The position numbers were made by a program, and so were the translations under genes. Shown piece after piece: positions 1,529 to 45,220 of a stretch of DNA of 61,872 nt. This DNA comes from Synechococcus sp. SB0662_bin_14 (GTDB lineage: Bacteria > Cyanobacteriota > Cyanobacteriia > PCC-6307 > Cyanobiaceae): contig VXNS01000068.1 in the NCBI GenBank assembly GCA_009840445.1, positions 1-61,872 of the forward strand. Reading direction: 5' to 3'. The notes under the pieces are model-generated. The model saw only the letters and a list, made by a program, of their open reading frames with translations. It was not told the DNA's origin and made no database searches. Every line of letters starts with the position of its first letter. The stretch's first letter is position 1.

Positions 1529-3970
1529 TTGAGCTCGTCTTCCCCGTCCCTTGCCGAGGCCGAGGCCAGGGCGGACGCTCTGCGGCAGCAACTCAATCAA
1601 GCCAGTCACGCCTATTACGTTCTGGCGGAACCGACCCTCCCGGATCAGGAGTACGACCACCTCTATCGGGAACTGGTGGAGTTGGAGGAGCTTCATCCCC
1701 AACTGGTGCGGCCCGAAAGCCCCACCCAGCGAGTGGGCGAGCCGGTGGAGGCTGGTTTGCCCAGTGTCGTCCACAGGATTCCGCTTCTCAGCCTGGACAA
1801 CGTCTTTGCCGTGGAGGAGTTGCCGACGTGGGAGCAGCGGTTGCGCCGCTATCTTGACGGCTCCCCTGACCAACCCCTGGCCTATACCTGTGAGCTGAAG
1901 GTGGACGGGATGGCCCTGGCTCTACGCTACGAGCACGGCCTGTTGGTGCAGGGGGCCACCCGGGGAGACGGTCAACGGGGGGAGGAGATCACCGCCAGCG
2001 TCCGCACCATTCGCTCCATCCCCCTCCGGCTGCGCTGTACGGACCCGCCAGCCTGGGCAGAAATCCGTGGGGAGGCGTTTCTGGCGGAAGCCACCTTCTC
2101 CGCCATCAATCAACAGCGCCGCCAACAGGACGAGCCGCCCTTTGCCAACGCCCGCAATGCCTGCGCCGGCACCTTGCGCCAGTTGAATCCCCGGGTGGTG
2201 GCCAGCCGCAAGGTGGATTTTGTGGCCTACGGGCTTCACCTCTCGCCGGAGCAGCCCCAGCCCCGCCAGCAGTTGGCGGCCCTGGACTGGTTGAGCACCG
2301 CCGGGTTCAAAATTGACCCCCATGCCCGGCGCTGCATCAGCCTGGCGGAGGTGGGACGGTTTTACCAGCATTGGAACCTTCAGCGTCACCAGCTTCCCTA
2401 TGGGGCAGACGGGGTGGTGGTCAAGCTGAACGACCTGGCCCTTCAGCAGCAGGCGGGCCACACCCAGCGGGCGCCCCGCTGGGCCGTGGCCATGAAGTTC
2501 AGCCAGGTGGAGGCCAGGAGCACGCTGCGGCGCCTTGTGGCCCAGGTGGGTCGCACCGGCGTGGTCACGCCGGTGGCGGAGTTTGACCCGGTGGAACTGG
2601 ACGGGAGCACCGTGGCCCGGGCCACGCTCCACAATGCCGACCGGATAGAAGACCTCACAAAAGGAACCGGTCTGCACGGGGCAGACACCCTCGTGGTGCG
2701 CAAGGCGGGTGGGGTGATTCCTGAAGTGGTGCGGGTGGAGCCCTGCTCACCTCCGGGCGAACCCCTCAGGTTTCCCCGCCACTGCCCGGAATGCGGTTCC
2801 TCCCTGGTGCGGGAACCCAAGGAAGCCGCCCTGCGGCAGTGGCTGTCCGATCCAGTCAATCAACCTCTCCTGGACCGTTGCCCCAAGCTCAAGGCATCGC
2901 TTCTGGAGGCTCTGGCCGGGTTGAAGCTGGAGGCCGCCACCCGCTGTGTCAACAGCAGTTGTCCAGCAATCCTCCGCGGCGCTCTGCGCCATTGGGTCAG
3001 CCGTGACGCCCTGGACGTTGACGGCCTCGGCCGTGAGCGGATCGACCAGTTGGTGGGGTGTGGCCTGGTTCACACCATTGACGATCTCTATGGATTGCAG
3101 GAGGCTGATCTGACCGCGTTGGAGGGTTGGGCCGAGCAGTCGGCCTGCCGCCTTCTGCAGTCGCTGGAGCTCTCCAGGCAGCAACCATGGCATCGTGTGC
3201 TCTACGGCCTGGGGATTCCCCACGTGGGCACCGCCAACGCCGCGGTGTTGGCCCGCGCCTTCCCCTCGGCAGAGAGCCTGGCGGAGGCTTTTGCAGTGAC
3301 CCGGCAGTTCCAGGGCGCCGATGAACCTCTCTTGGCCGGTCTCAAGGGGGTGATGGGTAAAGTGTCTGCCTGCAAGCTTCAACAGTGGCTCAGCCAGCCC
3401 GGCAACCGGAATCTCCTGATTAACCGGGAAGCCTCCTGGGAAGCGTCCGGGGGGCACTTGCTCTGCGCCATTCCCGACGTGGGAGCAAAAAAGGCCGAAT
3501 TCCTGATCCGCACCTTCCCTTCGGCGGAGCAGTTGATCGCAGCGTTTTCCGCCAACCGCAACTTTCAAGGGACCGACGAGCCGAAGGGGCTGCAAGGGGT
3601 TGGCAACAAAATTGCCCTGGCGCTGCAGCAGTGGCTGGCCAATCCCGCCAATCAAAAACTCCTGGAGCGCCTTGCCAAGACCGGCCTGCAGCTTCAGGGA
3701 CAGGTCCATCCGTCCATGGCGTCTAGCCAGGGACGGATGGCGGGCCAGGTTTTCGTGCTCACCGGCACCCTGCCCTCCCTCAGCCGTGGCGAAGCCCAGG
3801 CGCGGATCGAGGCGGCAGGGGGAACCGTGACCAGTGGCGTCAGCAAGAAGACCACCCACGTGGTGGTGGGCGCCAATCCGGGCAGCAAGCTGGACAAGGC
3901 CCGCGCCCTTGGGCTGGCGATTCTGGACGAGGCCACTCTGTTGCGGCACTTGGAGCCTGCACCCACGTGA
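1529..3970 (+). CDS. ligA: NAD-dependent DNA ligase LigA with duplicated HhH module and enlarged zinc finger
   Basis: LigA seals nicks in DNA using NAD+ in replication and repair. The adenylation domain carries the catalytic lysine motif ELKVDG (K124). An OB-fold follows, then a zinc finger that begins CPEC (419-422), helix-hairpin-helix repeats, and a BRCT domain (about 737-808). At 813 aa it is roughly 120-140 residues longer than usual. The extra length has two sources. About 35 residues (about 432-467) are inserted between the first and second cysteine pairs of the zinc finger. The HhH unit (about 558-640) is also copied in tandem (about 645-727). The start is TTG 1529, preceded by a purine-rich AGGGGGG. 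Identity is certain, the start less so. Confidence 0.97.
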   Translation: MSSSSPSLAEAEARADALRQQLNQASHAYYVLAEPTLPDQEYDHLYRELVELEELHPQLVRPESPTQRVGEPVEAGLPSVVHRIPLLSLDNVFAVEELPTWEQRLRRYLDGSPDQPLAYTCELKVDGMALALRYEHGLLVQGATRGDGQRGEEITASVRTIRSIPLRLRCTDPPAWAEIRGEAFLAEATFSAINQQRRQQDEPPFANARNACAGTLRQLNPRVVASRKVDFVAYGLHLSPEQPQPRQQLAALDWLSTAGFKIDPHARRCISLAEVGRFYQHWNLQRHQLPYGADGVVVKLNDLALQQQAGHTQRAPRWAVAMKFSQVEARSTLRRLVAQVGRTGVVTPVAEFDPVELDGSTVARATLHNADRIEDLTKGTGLHGADTLVVRKAGGVIPEVVRVEPCSPPGEPLRFPRHCPECGSSLVREPKEAALRQWLSDPVNQPLLDRCPKLKASLLEALAGLKLEAATRCVNSSCPAILRGALRHWVSRDALDVDGLGRERIDQLVGCGLVHTIDDLYGLQEADLTALEGWAEQSACRLLQSLELSRQQPWHRVLYGLGIPHVGTANAAVLARAFPSAESLAEAFAVTRQFQGADEPLLAGLKGVMGKVSACKLQQWLSQPGNRNLLINREASWEASGGHLLCAIPDVGAKKAEFLIRTFPSAEQLIAAFSANRNFQGTDEPKGLQGVGNKIALALQQWLANPANQKLLERLAKTGLQLQGQVHPSMASSQGRMAGQVFVLTGTLPSLSRGEAQARIEAAGGTVTSGVSKKTTHVVVGANPGSKLDKARALGLAILDEATLLRHLEPAPT

Positions 3971-4011
3971 CGGAAATTGCGGCAGACTGGAGGCAGTGCT
4001 CCTGTCACGTC

Positions 4012-4873: not shown

Positions 4874-7800
4874 TCAGCCCAGGGAGGCGAGGCGACTTTG
4901 GGCCAGGCGCTGTTGCTGCCGGGCCTCGCTCAGGTTAGAGCGCATCCTGCTCACCACGTCCTGGGGGGCCTGATCCAGAAACTTGGGATTGCTCAAGCGC
5001 TCGGCAAGGACGGTGATCTCCTTCTCCGCCTTGCCCAGGTCTTTCCGCAGGCGGTTCCGCAGGGCGTCCACGTCCACGAGACCACCCACCGGCAGCAGGA
5101 TTTGCAGTTCACCACTGACGGCACTCAAACAGCGGGGCAGGTCCAGGGCGGTGGTGCTGATGTCCACCGCGCCAGCCCTGGTGAGACCGGCAATGTCGTC
5201 CCTGGCCTCCTGTAACAACCGACAGAGCCCTTCGTTGTCGCTCACAAAGAGCACGTCCGCGCTCTGGGAGGGTTTCAAGCCCGCCACTGCCCGCAGGTTG
5301 CGCACCACGCGAACGGCGTCAATGACGGCCCCGAACTGCTGTTCCAGGTGGTCGTTCAGGTGGGCCGAATCCAGTTGGGGCCACCGCTGCAGGGCCAGGA
5401 AGGTGTTGCCGTCAGCACCGCTCAGCCGATGCCACAGCTCCTCGCTGACGTGGGGCATGAACGGGTGGACCAGCACCAGCAGTTGCTCAATCACCAGAGC
5501 CAGAACCTGCTGGGCCGTGCGGCGATCCTCCGGATTGCTGCCGTTGAGGCGCCGCTTGAGCAATTCAATGGTCCAATCGCACACGTCGTTCCAGGCAAAC
5601 TCGTAGAGGATCCTGGCCGCTTCCCCCAGGCCGTAGATGTCCAGCTTCTCTGCCATGGCCCCACTGGTGCGCACCAGGCGGGAGAGGATCCAGCGATCTG
5701 CGATTAAAAGCTTGTCCGGATCCGGCCGGCCGAGGGACGAGGGGGTGGCTCCGTCCAGATTGAGGAGGGCGAAACGGGTGGCGTTCCACAACTTGTTGGC
5801 AAAGTTGCGCGATACCTCGACGGCGTTGGATGTTTGTGTGGCGGGATCGAAGTCCAGGCGAATGTCCTGCCCCGCTCCGGCCACGCCCCGCACCAGGGAA
5901 AAGCGCAGGGCGTCCGCCCCGTAACGCTCACAGAGCACCAGGGGATCAATGCCGTTGCCGGCGGATTTGCTCATCTTGCGGTTCTGGGCGTCCCGCACCA
6001 GACCGTGGATGTACACGTCGGCGAAGGGAATGGCGCGGGTGCAGACTGCGCCCATCATGGTCATGCGGGCCACCCAGAAGAAGATGATGTCGAATCCCGT
6101 GAACAGGGTGCTGTTGGGATACCAGCACCGCAGATCGGCACTCTCCTCATCCGGCCAGCCCATGGTGGAGAAAGGCCAAAGGGCGCTGGAGAACCAGGTG
6201 TCCAGCACGTCTTCATCCTGCTGAATCGTGGCGTTGGGTCCGTAACGGCGCCGGGCCTCGTCCTGGGCTTCGGTTGCATTGCGGGCCACCACGTAGGGTG
6301 TGTCGCTGCGCAACCGGGAGCCGGTTTCACTCACCACAAACCAGGCTGGAATGCGATGGCCCCACCAAAGCTGGCGGCTGATGCACCAGTCGCGGATCTC
6401 CATCAGCCAATCCCGGTACACCTTGGCCCAGCGCTCGGGAACAAAGCGGGGGCGTCCCTGGTTCAGGGCAGCCAGGCAGGCATTGGCCAGTGGTTTGGTG
6501 CGCACAAACCACTGGGTGGAGAGCAGTGGCTCCACCGGAACCTTGCCCCGGTCCGAATAGGGAACAGTGTGACGGTAATTTTCCACTTTCACCAGGGCCT
6601 GTTCAGTGGCCAGGGCGGCCACAACGGCCTGCCGCGCCTCGAAGCGCTCCAGGCCACGGAATTGCCCCGCAGCTTCGTTCATGCGGCCGTCCTTGCCCAT
6701 GACCGTCACCAGAGGCAGGCCATGGCGCTGACCCATGGCAAAGTCGTTGGGGTCATGGGCCGGGGTCACTTTTACGCAGCCGGTGCCGAATTGGGGATCC
6801 ACGTGGTCATCGGCAATCACCGGAATCTTGCGACCCACGAGGGGCAGGGTGAGGGTACGGCCCACCCATTGGGCATAGCGCTGGTCGCCGGGATTGACCG
6901 CCACCGCCACGTCCCCCAACATGGTCTCGGGGCGGGTGGTGGCCACCTCCAGGTGACCGGATCCATCGGTGAGGGGATAGCGTAAATACCAGAGATGACC
7001 GTCCACTTCCTTCATCTCCACCTCCAGGTCGCTAACCGCCGAGCCGGAGGCGGGACACCAGTTCACCAGATATTCCCCCCGATAAATCAGCCCCTTCTCG
7101 TGCAACCGCAAAAACGATTCCTGTACGGCCCGGCTGAGTTCCGGGTCCAGAGTGAAGCGCTCCCGCCGCCAATCCACGGAAAATCCCAGACGGCGCAGTT
7201 GGGTGGTGATTGCTCCACCACTCTCCTGCTTCCAGGCCCAGGCCCGCTCCAGGAAAGCTTCACGGCCAAGCCGGTCTTTGCTGGTTCCTTCCCGGGCCAG
7301 TTGTTTTTCCAGAAGCGTTTGCACAGCAATGGAGGCGTGGTCCATGCCCGGCAGGCAGAGGGTGTTGTACCCCCGTAACCGCTTGAACCGCACCATGGCG
7401 TCCATCAGGGCCGCTTCAAACGCATGGCCCATGTGCAGGTTGCCCGTCACGTTGGGGGGCGGAATCACCACCCCGTAGGGTTGGCCCGGGGCCTGGGGAT
7501 CCGGATGGAAGGCATGGCAGTGCTCCCAGGCCGACTGCCAGCGGGCTTCTGTGGCCTTGGGATCGTATTGCCCCATGGATACCGGCGCCGGGTGTTCAGG
7601 GGAGGCCCCCCTGTCCTGCTCCATCGCGGTCAGCACAACATGGCCGCCACGGATCTCAATGGCCATTTGATCACCGGGTGTCAAACCCAGTTGGCCGATA
7701 TACGTCTTGCCAACCAGCAGGTTGCCGTTTCCTTGAACCTTGGCTACGAAGCTGAGCTTGCGGCCGCCTTGGGTTCCACTGCCAATCCGTATGCCTTTGG

Positions 7801-7954
7801 CCTGGAGAAGTGCGTCGTAAAACGCCGTGAAGTTGAGGCATTCACGGCCGTCCTTCATGGTGGTGACATAGCCACAAGCGCGAACAACTTCTGTTTTGCT
7901 GGCGCCAGCGAGCTCACGGACCTTGTTGAGAAGCTCTGCGTGTTTGAGCATCAT
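4874..7954 (-). CDS. valS: cyAbrB domain fused to valyl-tRNA synthetase
   Basis: Residues about 1-115 form a complete cyAbrB-type DNA-binding protein ([45 protein letters not shown]). They match the separate cyAbrB gene immediately upstream. After a short Pro/Gly-rich linker (about 112-126), residues 127-1026 are a full class I ValRS. It has the HMGH signature within [14 protein letters not shown], an editing CP1 domain, the KMSKS loop, an anticodon-binding domain and a C-terminal coiled coil. The reading frame has no stop across the junction. ATG 7576 (MGQYDP) could act as an internal ValRS start, and the fusion rests on a six-C run at 7606-7611 where one extra base would split the genes. 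ValRS is certain and the fusion is probable. Confidence 0.93.
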
Positions 7955-42317: not shown

Positions 42318-43541
42318 CTACTGGATCTGGTCGAACACGGTAAGCATGGGCAGATACATGGCCATCAGAATGGACCCCACGATGCCGCCCACCACCAGGA
42401 TCATCATGGGCTCCACCATGGCGGTGAGGGTTTTGAGGGTGGTGGTGACCTCGGCTTCGTAAAAGTCGGCGATTTTGGCCAGCATGACGTGCATCCGGCC
42501 TGTTTCTTCGCCGATGGCCACCATGGTGACGGCTGTATGGGGGAACACGTTTTGGGCCCCTAGAGCGGTGCTCAGCAGTTCCCCTTCTTCCAGGTTGTGT
42601 TGGGCCTGGGCAACAGCACGGTTGATGACCCCGTTGCGGATCACGGCCCGGGCAATGTCCATGGCGGAGAGAATGGGCACACCCGCACGGGTGAGGCAAG
42701 CCAAGGTGCGGCAGAACTGGGCGGTGGCGGTCTTGCGCAGCAACCCACCGAACACCACCAGGGCCAAGACCCACTGATCCCACTGCCGGCGACCTCGGGG
42801 GGTGTTGCGGGCCATGGATAGCCCCCCCAAGGCCAGCACCAGCAGCACCAGAGCCGCAACGGCCCAGGGGGAGCGCAGCCAATGACTCAGATTCACCATC
42901 AACTGTGTGAACAGCGGCAGTTCGGCGCCAAGCTCGGCAAAGACTCCGGCAAATGTGGGGATGAGGAAGACGGTCATGCCCAAAAAGGCGCCCACGGCCA
43001 TGACCAGAATCATCAAGGGATAGGTGACGGCCTGCTGAAGCTGGTTTTCCAGCTTGGCGTTGCTCTCCAGAACCATGGCCAGGTGGCCCAGCACCTCGTC
43101 CATCACCCCGGCGGCTTCACCCGCCATGACCATGGCCACGGTCATGGGGTCAAAGATACGGGGCCAGCGCTTCATGGCGCCCCCCAGGCTGTCCCCCTGG
43201 CGCACGTCCAGGGAGACGGCGGCCAAAGCCCGCTTGAACAGGGGAGAGCGTTGTTGCTCCGCCACCAGATCCAGACCCCGCACAACGGGTACGCCGGCAC
43301 CCACCAGGGCGGAAAGCTTGCTGGCCCAGACGGCCCGCTCCCGGCGGCTGGGGGGGCGCTCCAGCGTGAACGTCCACCCCGCTGACGGGGGGCGCTGCGG
43401 CAAAGCCTCGATCTTGATGGGCGTCAACTGGCGGCGCAGCAGGATGCGGCGCGCCTTCACGAGGCTGGCGGCCTCCAACTCTACGGTTTTGGTGGCGCCC
43501 TGCTTGTTGCGACAGGTGGCGGTGTAGCGCATGGTTGACAT
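42318..43541 (-). CDS. pilC: Type IV pilus inner-membrane platform protein PilC
   Basis: The 407 aa protein has two GspF-type domains: first with FTLERPPSRRERAVWASKL and MVMAGEAAGVMDEVL, second with FCRTLACLTRAGVPIL and MVAIGEETGRMHVML. Three membrane segments are present (PLMILVMAVGAFLGMTVFLI, WAVAALVLLVLALGGL, MMILVVGGIVGSILMAMYL). The start is ATG 43541 (MSTMRYTATCRNKQG), overlapping the pilB stop as TAATG. No pilT lies between pilB and pilC. Confidence 0.95.
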   Translation of the reverse strand: MSTMRYTATCRNKQGATKTVELEAASLVKARRILLRRQLTPIKIEALPQRPPSAGWTFTLERPPSRRERAVWASKLSALVGAGVPVVRGLDLVAEQQRSPLFKRALAAVSLDVRQGDSLGGAMKRWPRIFDPMTVAMVMAGEAAGVMDEVLGHLAMVLESNAKLENQLQQAVTYPLMILVMAVGAFLGMTVFLIPTFAGVFAELGAELPLFTQLMVNLSHWLRSPWAVAALVLLVLALGGLSMARNTPRGRRQWDQWVLALVVFGGLLRKTATAQFCRTLACLTRAGVPILSAMDIARAVIRNGVINRAVAQAQHNLEEGELLSTALGAQNVFPHTAVTMVAIGEETGRMHVMLAKIADFYEAEVTTTLKTLTAMVEPMMILVVGGIVGSILMAMYLPMLTVFDQIQ

Positions 43542-45220
43542 TAGGTGGGACGCTGCTGCAGGCAATAGGGGCACTCCAGCCATTGATCCCGCAGTCCGGC
43601 GCCACAGCCCGAACAGTTGAGGGAGTTGAGGGCCTTGGCCCGTCGTTCCGTGGCCAGGCCCACGTCCGTCAGCAACACCCGCTCCACCTCCTCCAGGGTG
43701 GTGATGCCCTGGCGGACCAACTCCAGGCCGTAGCCCAGCAGTGTGGTCATGCCCGCTGCCACGGCCATGCGCCGCAGGTGATCCGTTGTGAAGCCCCGCG
43801 CCACTGCCGCGGCAATCTCCTCCCCCACCGGCAGCACCTCGTAGACCCCCACCCGTCCCCGGTAGCCACTGCCGCCGCACTGGTTGCAGCCCGGCCCTCC
43901 CGGGGCGCTGACACAGGCGCGATAGAACTGCAGTTCCGTGTCCTCACTGGCCAGAAGCCCCACCCTGGCCAGGTCTTCAGGGTGGGGACGGTAGGGGATG
44001 GCACAGGCGGGGCAGACACGGCGCAGCAGCCGTTGCGACACCACCCCCAGCAAAGAGGCCGCCACCAGAAAAGGCTCAATGCCCATCTCCTGCAAGCGCA
44101 CAACGGCGCTGGGGGCATCGTTGCAATGGAGGGTGGTGAGCACCAGGTGGCCGGTGAGGGCAGCCTCAACGGCGATTTTGGCCGTCTCCCGGTCCCGGGT
44201 TTCCCCCACCAGCAACACGTCCGGGTCCTGGCGCATGAAGGCCCGCAGAACCACGGCGAAATCCAGGCCCTTCTCCCGGTTGACCTGGGTCTGGGTAATA
44301 CCGGGCAGGGTGTACTCCACCGGATCCTCCACGGTGCTGATGTTGACGCCCGGCTGGTTCAGCAGGGCCAGCAGGGCATACAGGGTGGTGGATTTGCCTG
44401 AGCCGGTGGGGCCGGTGACCAGAACCATGCCGTGGGGGCGTGTGCCCATGGCCTGCACCGCAGCGCGCACCGCCTCGTTGGTAATCAATTGATCCAGGCC
44501 CAACTGCACCGTGTCGTGATCCAGCAGCCGCAGGCAGATCTTTTCCCCATGGCGGCTGGGCAGGCTGCTGACGCGGAAATCTACGGTGCGGCCATGGAAA
44601 CGGCGGCGGATACGGCCGTCTTGAGGAAGCCGCCGCTCGGCAATGTCCAGGTCCGCCATGATCTTGAAGCGGGAGGTGACAGCAGGAATCACCTGCTTGG
44701 GCAAACCGCTGTAGACCTTCTGCAGTACTCCGTCCCGGCGTAGGCGCACCACCAGTTCGTTGTCCTGGGGTTCCACGTGGATGTCGCTGGCCCCCTGGCT
44801 CAGGGCTTCCATGAGGATTTTGTCGGCCATGGCCACTGCTGGCGAGGCGTCCTCCGTTGCTACGATTGTCGCCAGGTCGGGGGCTTCGGCCTGGTTGCTC
44901 TGCTCGGTGGCATCGCCAGGCTCACCCAGGTCGCCAGCCGGCCCCGTCGCCTGCTGCGCACTGGCCATGCGGCATCCATGGAGGAGTTGTTGCTCCAGGC
45001 GTTGCAACTCCTGCAAGCCCTGGATCGTCCGGGCGGAGAGGGCATGGCCAGGCAGATCCTCAAGGAACCGGGTTAAATCGGCTTCACCGCTGCGGCAGCG
45101 CTGAAAGGCCATGCGAACCTGCTGCTCACCGCAGAATCCCTGGTGGACCAGTTGCCACGCTGCCTCCGGCAGGGGGCCCGGCCCGGCTGAGGTCAAGGGT
45201 TGGAAGGATTGGGTGGTCAT
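43541..45220 (-). CDS. pilB: Type IV pilus assembly ATPase PilB
   Basis: The 559 aa ATPase powers pilus extension. It has an N-terminal MshE-like domain and the ATPase core. Walker A is VTGPTGSGKSTTLYALL, the Asp box is STVEDPVEY, Walker B lies in PDVLLVGETRDRETAKIAVE, and the His box in TGHLVLTTLHCND. A zinc-binding loop is visible (CPAC, then CNQCGGSGYRGRVGVYE). A further CSGCGAGL/CPYC zinc ribbon ends the protein. The start is ATG 45220. It is translationally coupled to pilC. Pilus genes in this lineage are linked to DNA uptake. Confidence 0.96.
   Translation of the reverse strand: MTTQSFQPLTSAGPGPLPEAAWQLVHQGFCGEQQVRMAFQRCRSGEADLTRFLEDLPGHALSARTIQGLQELQRLEQQLLHGCRMASAQQATGPAGDLGEPGDATEQSNQAEAPDLATIVATEDASPAVAMADKILMEALSQGASDIHVEPQDNELVVRLRRDGVLQKVYSGLPKQVIPAVTSRFKIMADLDIAERRLPQDGRIRRRFHGRTVDFRVSSLPSRHGEKICLRLLDHDTVQLGLDQLITNEAVRAAVQAMGTRPHGMVLVTGPTGSGKSTTLYALLALLNQPGVNISTVEDPVEYTLPGITQTQVNREKGLDFAVVLRAFMRQDPDVLLVGETRDRETAKIAVEAALTGHLVLTTLHCNDAPSAVVRLQEMGIEPFLVAASLLGVVSQRLLRRVCPACAIPYRPHPEDLARVGLLASEDTELQFYRACVSAPGGPGCNQCGGSGYRGRVGVYEVLPVGEEIAAAVARGFTTDHLRRMAVAAGMTTLLGYGLELVRQGITTLEEVERVLLTDVGLATERRAKALNSLNCSGCGAGLRDQWLECPYCLQQRPT

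Follow-up and report, generated by a model that had tools for sequence, protein, structure and literature searches.

The window analysed here, a stretch of 61,872 nucleotides from Synechococcus sp. SB0662_bin_14 (contig VXNS01000068.1), carries on its forward strand a ligA gene for an NAD-dependent DNA ligase of 813 amino acids (positions 1529 to 3970, with a TTG start assumed). The organism belongs to the same genus as the sponge symbiont Candidatus Synechococcus spongiarum, and among named records, isolate 1 of that species (Candidatus Synechococcus spongiarum, 89% identity) and two MAGs of cyanobacteria come closest to the window. A Pfam scan detected every LigA domain in the protein (DNA_ligase_aden at 8.8e-87, OB at 6e-24, and BRCT at 7.4e-13), including the Ia domain that confers NAD+ use (Nlig-Ia at 1.4e-7, residues 13 to 61), and their order of Ia, NTase with KVDG, OB, C4 zinc finger, helix-hairpin-helix (HhH) domain, and BRCT is that of the LigAs of E. 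coli (2owo), T. filiformis (1dgs), and D. radiodurans (8ak4). LigA structures are also the best structural and sequence matches of the window protein. The KVDG at residues 124 to 127, representing the catalytic lysine motif K-x-D-G, is near-invariant across our LigA alignment, and the zinc-finger cysteines C419, C422, C473, and C478 (2777 to 2968) are invariant; a lineage-specific insertion parts the two Cys pairs and divides the finger, with Pfam DNA_ligase_ZBD found in two pieces. HhH1-HhH2 (2966 to 3187) have normal LigA sequence by alignment and identity (residues 468 to 553 share on average 64.5% identity with LigAs of the family), and the BRCT domain (3734 to 3943, Pfam BRCT) is normal as well. 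By its domains the protein is thus a LigA with NAD+-dependent nick sealing as its putative activity. It is the sole PF01653 match in the organism's assembly (99.6% complete), in which a search with PF01068 for ATP-dependent ligases gave no match. Searches of the genome with LigA, PF01653, and PF01068 for another ligase that could relieve the enlarged enzyme, whether a LigA of normal size or an ATP-dependent one, found none. The window protein, the only ligase detected there, is probably essential.

The window ligase differs from standard LigA in its length (813 amino acids versus roughly 660 to 720), in a zinc finger divided by about 39 amino acids, and in having six HhH motifs instead of four. 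The first-pass annotation had proposed a tandem duplication within the HhH region, and two copies indeed lie where it had placed them, at residues 558 to 727 (window 3200 to 3709), with unit limits at residues 556 to 631 and 648 to 719 according to HMM searches. Both copies show all the motifs it had listed, save that copy 2 has alanine for the first glycine of the G-x-x-x-V-G entry (GIPHVG in copy 1, AIPDVG in copy 2). Aligned with each other, the copies are identical at 37 of 68 residues (54%; E = 5e-22 for this single comparison), which rules out chance likeness, and over the unit alignment they share 53% protein and 58% DNA identity. The two HhH3-HhH4 units are a real duplication. Also in agreement with the annotation, the HhH region is one HhH3-HhH4 module longer than in standard LigA, as LigAs outside the genus have a single unit, so that the gain over a standard ligase stands. 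Pfam itself reports two HHH_2 stretches in the protein. In a fragment-based self-comparison of the 153 window reading frames of at least 150 amino acids, only LigA has a strong internal repeat; a repeat-bearing minus-strand frame at 2750 to 4009 simply reads ligA on its opposite strand. The one further candidate, an open frame of 541 amino acids at 42321 to 43943 on the minus strand, repeats itself just weakly (29% identity, E of about 1e-5). The idea of an in-frame repeat that is mobile across the genome was discarded, as the two-unit query matched only ligA and its zinc-finger fragment in its own genome.

The enlargement is not confined to this one genome: our comparison reveals a genus-wide and still changing feature. 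We built a module profile from the HhH3-HhH4 region of 26 LigAs that do not belong to the genus (25 are from the same family, the other is L034), and a search with it found exactly one module in each of these 26 proteins and two in the window LigA. Each of the nine genus members for which ligA is readable carries two or at least three units: two in the window and in G123 and G124, three in G121, G122, G063, G091, and G008, and at least three in G114, whose array contains an N gap. Three-unit relatives thus have eight HhH motifs. In the LigA frame of G121 (L067), an additional partial HhH4-like piece lies between units 2 and 3 at residues of about 697 to 750 (TAKSLQEWLAKPDNQKLL), which makes this array longer than three whole units. 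Beyond the genus, no match spanning both units was found outside the window in 386 cyanobacterial genomes, a search that weak second units may have escaped, and all ten distant LigA ORFs examined have a single unit. Within this sampling and judged by sequence, the doubling is a genus trait. The literature searched, outside of which most subscription papers lie, yielded a hit on the ligases of large DNA viruses but no paper on a duplication within the HhH domain of LigA; the enlarged domain is thus undescribed in searchable papers and a variation on a well-known enzyme.

To locate the gained material, each half of each unit was scored against family profiles in the eight genomes with a contiguous array. 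In all eight, the HhH3 half is best preserved in the first unit (49 to 60 bits, compared to at most 40 for inner copies) and the HhH4 half in the last unit (30 to 44 bits, compared to at most 26), though these genomes are related and the pattern at the ends does not amount to eight independent tests. In the window LigA, this places the ancestral HhH3 within the first unit (3188 to 3289; 54 bits versus 10 for the inner copy) and the ancestral HhH4 within the last unit (3587 to 3700; 37 bits versus 9), while the stretch between them (3290 to 3586) is an inserted HhH4'-HhH3' pair of about 99 amino acids with a pI of 8.8 that is predicted to be helical. All four ancestral HhH motifs are kept in this protein, and the two additional ones lie between the third and the fourth. 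AlphaFold models point the same way. In the three-unit array of G063, 143 residues superpose on solved LigA HhH domains at 1.6 to 2.0 A, and they span model residues 1 to 306, reaching the end of the third unit and far exceeding the roughly 145 residues of a contiguous first unit. For the full window LigA, residues 723 to 726 align with where the HhH domain ends in 2owo, 4glx, 5tt5, and 8ak4. The two models were built from input alignments that treated the single-copy outgroups in different ways (for G063, these were matched with unit 1), and the result for the outer ends held in both. Confidence in these models is moderate (pTM of 0.58 and 0.52), loops within each unit have low pLDDT, and the pairing is read from the alignment ranges.

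Most simply read, HhH1, HhH2, the first unit's HhH3, and the last unit's HhH4 together make up the normal clamp domain, with the ancestral outer halves still pairing. What was gained is best understood as an HhH4'-HhH3' pair inside the HhH domain (about 3290 to 3586), formed by the duplicated inner halves and present as two pairs in several relatives. The annotation had instead placed the second copy between the normal HhH region and BRCT; this copy does adjoin BRCT, but it ends in the ancestral HhH4, and the additional material sits inside the domain. An appended module, i.e., an intact normal HhH3-HhH4 as the first unit followed by an extra copy before BRCT, would follow the plain reading order of the sequence, and tandem duplication and internal insertion are indistinguishable at the DNA level, yet we consider this arrangement improbable given the conservation of the outer halves in all eight genomes and the structural alignment ranges in both models. 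That the array might be an artefact of assembly or binning could be suspected from the 85 contigs of the window genome and the N gap within the G114 array, but the frame is open throughout, the copies are just 54% identical, and eight other genomes have the same architecture, leaving this explanation with practically no credibility.

The history of the array was addressed with protein and DNA trees of single units. Most first units group together and most last units group apart from them, a pattern that a single duplication in the genus ancestor would leave, though the deep nodes of the unit DNA tree have weak support (62% and 89% UFBoot). On top of this pattern, several middle units cluster with an adjacent unit of their own genome: units 1 and 2 of G008 (99% UFBoot), units 2 and 3 of G121 (94% UFBoot), and units 1 and 2 of G091 (85% in the DNA tree; not paired in the protein tree), while all units of G063 and G114 form a clade of their own (96% UFBoot). 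This pairing suggests that several lineages gained units later or that gene conversion took place, and the trees fit either. The HhH3-HhH4 module would accordingly have been duplicated in tandem in the ancestor of the Candidatus Synechococcus spongiarum genus, with further units added later, lineage by lineage.

Substitution patterns indicate that the insert is under purifying selection. In four comparisons, its dN/dS was 0.24 (bootstrap interval 0.09 to 0.57), 0.33 (0.16 to 0.56), 0.37 (0.20 to 0.64), and 0.15 (0.03 to 0.51), with all intervals below 1 and values near the 0.17 to 0.25 of the catalytic core; the ancestral HhH3 ranges from 0.06 to 0.25. Seven of the eight genomes have a basic insert, with a pI of 8 to 9.4 compared to 5.0 to 6.6 for the rest of the domain, and G091 has an acidic one. 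Pfam HHH_2 exceeds its cut-off in the inserts of five of the eight genomes, and the window insert falls just below it (23.6 for a cut-off of 27). The window insert has a regular hairpin in its inner HhH3' (IPDVGAKKAEFL) and a degenerate one in its inner HhH4' (GVMGKV in place of GIGxEI).

Other parts of ligA have been rearranged, too. The zinc-finger insertion of about 39 amino acids (2813 to 2929), a feature beyond the claims of the annotation, is absent from aligned LigAs outside the genus and is predicted at low confidence to be helical. Its first part (2825 to 2887) duplicates the HhH4 tail at 3617 to 3679 as a dispersed copy (45 of 63 bases identical, 71%), and the next-best place for this fragment on the plus strand of the window reaches 34 of 63. 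At the protein level, none of 2,000 shuffles attained the score of the zinc-finger/HhH4 likeness in three genomes, and the likeness is weaker in G091, G121, and G122; G114, G008, and G063 lack the insertion entirely or almost entirely. A helix of the NTase domain is doubled in L073 of G008 and L070 of G091 (WEKTLRSELGKWEKTLRDKL / WEQQLHNKLHNWERQLHEKL) and single-copy in the other genus members. Directly downstream of ligA, three relatives encode a fusion of a DnaQ-like exonuclease with BRCT in an open frame that overlaps the ligA end (L067:2733-3635 and L068:2932-3858, both on the minus strand, and L069:5682-6599 on the plus strand). The BRCT of this fusion closely resembles LigA BRCT (65 to 83% in cross-matches), and an ordinary DnaQ match without BRCT lies at a separate locus. 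Apparent broken remnants of the fusion are present in G063 (C68) and G114 (C37), and none was found in the window genome. In the window itself, valS (4874 to 7954 on the minus strand, 1026 amino acids) encodes a cyanobacterial AbrB-like regulator domain fused in frame ahead of valyl-tRNA synthetase (Pfam AbrB-like at 1.4e-17), a fusion shared with G123 (1027 amino acids). In the genus g17 of the same family, four complete genomes (G017, G067, G095, and G117) are without a full-length LigA and contain short frames of 249 to 255 amino acids with a partial NAD-ligase adenylation domain together with ATP-dependent ligase (PF01068) frames of 444 to 559 amino acids that are found neither in the window genome nor in G010. 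In g17, LigA thus seems to have been replaced by an ATP-dependent ligase.

What the insert may do can be approached from known systems. LigA consists of four modular domains that are highly conserved between species; its HhH motifs contact both DNA strands in the minor groove, and its clamp closes via contacts between the NTase and HhH domains (PMC10504179). Engineered polymerases with a fused (HhH)2 pair, which showed better amplification performance and higher salt resistance (PMC7490695), resemble our case in that such a pair is joined to a DNA enzyme and serve us as a model for the role of the insert, though these fusions are artificial, C-terminal, and made with polymerase rather than ligase. 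By analogy to these observations, the insert would most likely add duplex contact. In nature, tandem (HhH)2 repeats on a DNA enzyme are also known from Methanopyrus topoisomerase V, where they form the bulk of the protein, whereas those of the window LigA lie inside an existing HhH domain. Topoisomerase V is a weak structural match (8df9 with Z of 3.5 and 5hm5 with Z of 3.4) that reflects fold likeness at the level of HhH alone; no topoisomerase domain was found in the Pfam scan of the window LigA, nor any sign of a family relation. The sequence of unit 2 had no match in the PDB.

We see about an even chance that the full account holds in which the module was duplicated in the ancestor of the genus, the outer halves pair into a normal clamp domain, and the insert adds a non-specific grip on duplex DNA, giving the LigA clamp a longer footprint or a stronger hold with unchanged ligation chemistry. 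A changed grip on DNA, as the annotation had proposed, remains the best functional guess, drawn from analogy. The degenerate HhH4' hairpin and sub-threshold HHH_2 score of the window insert, the acidic insert of G091, and the moderate confidence of the models count against this account. It is possible, though we advance this only tentatively, that the array is a selected and changing extension of the clamp, with species gaining (HhH)2 pairs that tune the footprint of their only ligase. The main rival is constrained neutral expansion: units would arise by unequal crossing-over and be tolerated since the outer ends preserve the clamp, adding no useful activity, while selection only keeps the insert foldable. 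Lineage-specific third copies, loops that vary and hairpins that have degenerated in some inner motifs, an array length that varies by species, and the further duplications in ligA (the zinc finger, and the NTase helix in G091 and G008) all fit such a process, which accounts for the anatomy nearly as well as an added grip does. However, every readable ligA of the genus keeps at least two units and none has returned to one, the insert has a dN/dS well under 1 in all four comparisons, and LigA alone is strongly repeated among the window frames, so that we regard neutral expansion as a serious but minority possibility.

Alternatively, the insert could be a docking arm for a protein (e.g., polymerase, exonuclease, or replication machinery) rather than a grip on DNA. 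HhH and SAM-like folds serve as protein docking surfaces, too, the AR2 domain of NusA is among the weak structural matches, and the exonuclease-BRCT fusion adjoins ligA in three relatives. Yet the window genome has the insert without an exonuclease-BRCT gene, and the basic character of seven of eight inserts also speaks against docking, which we therefore find unlikely.

LigA is a studied antibacterial target and a laboratory enzyme. A genus whose only ligase found has two to four extra HhH motifs is a natural experiment on how HhH number relates to nick binding, in which these motifs were apparently gained more than once and kept by purifying selection. Its anatomy illustrates how a module may be gained inside a clamp without breaking it, with the old halves retained at the ends and a new pair growing in the middle of the domain. 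The LigAs of this genus are also a possible source of ligases that grip DNA more strongly, and if the array is indeed a selected extension of the clamp, it would be a natural counterpart to engineered HhH fusions.
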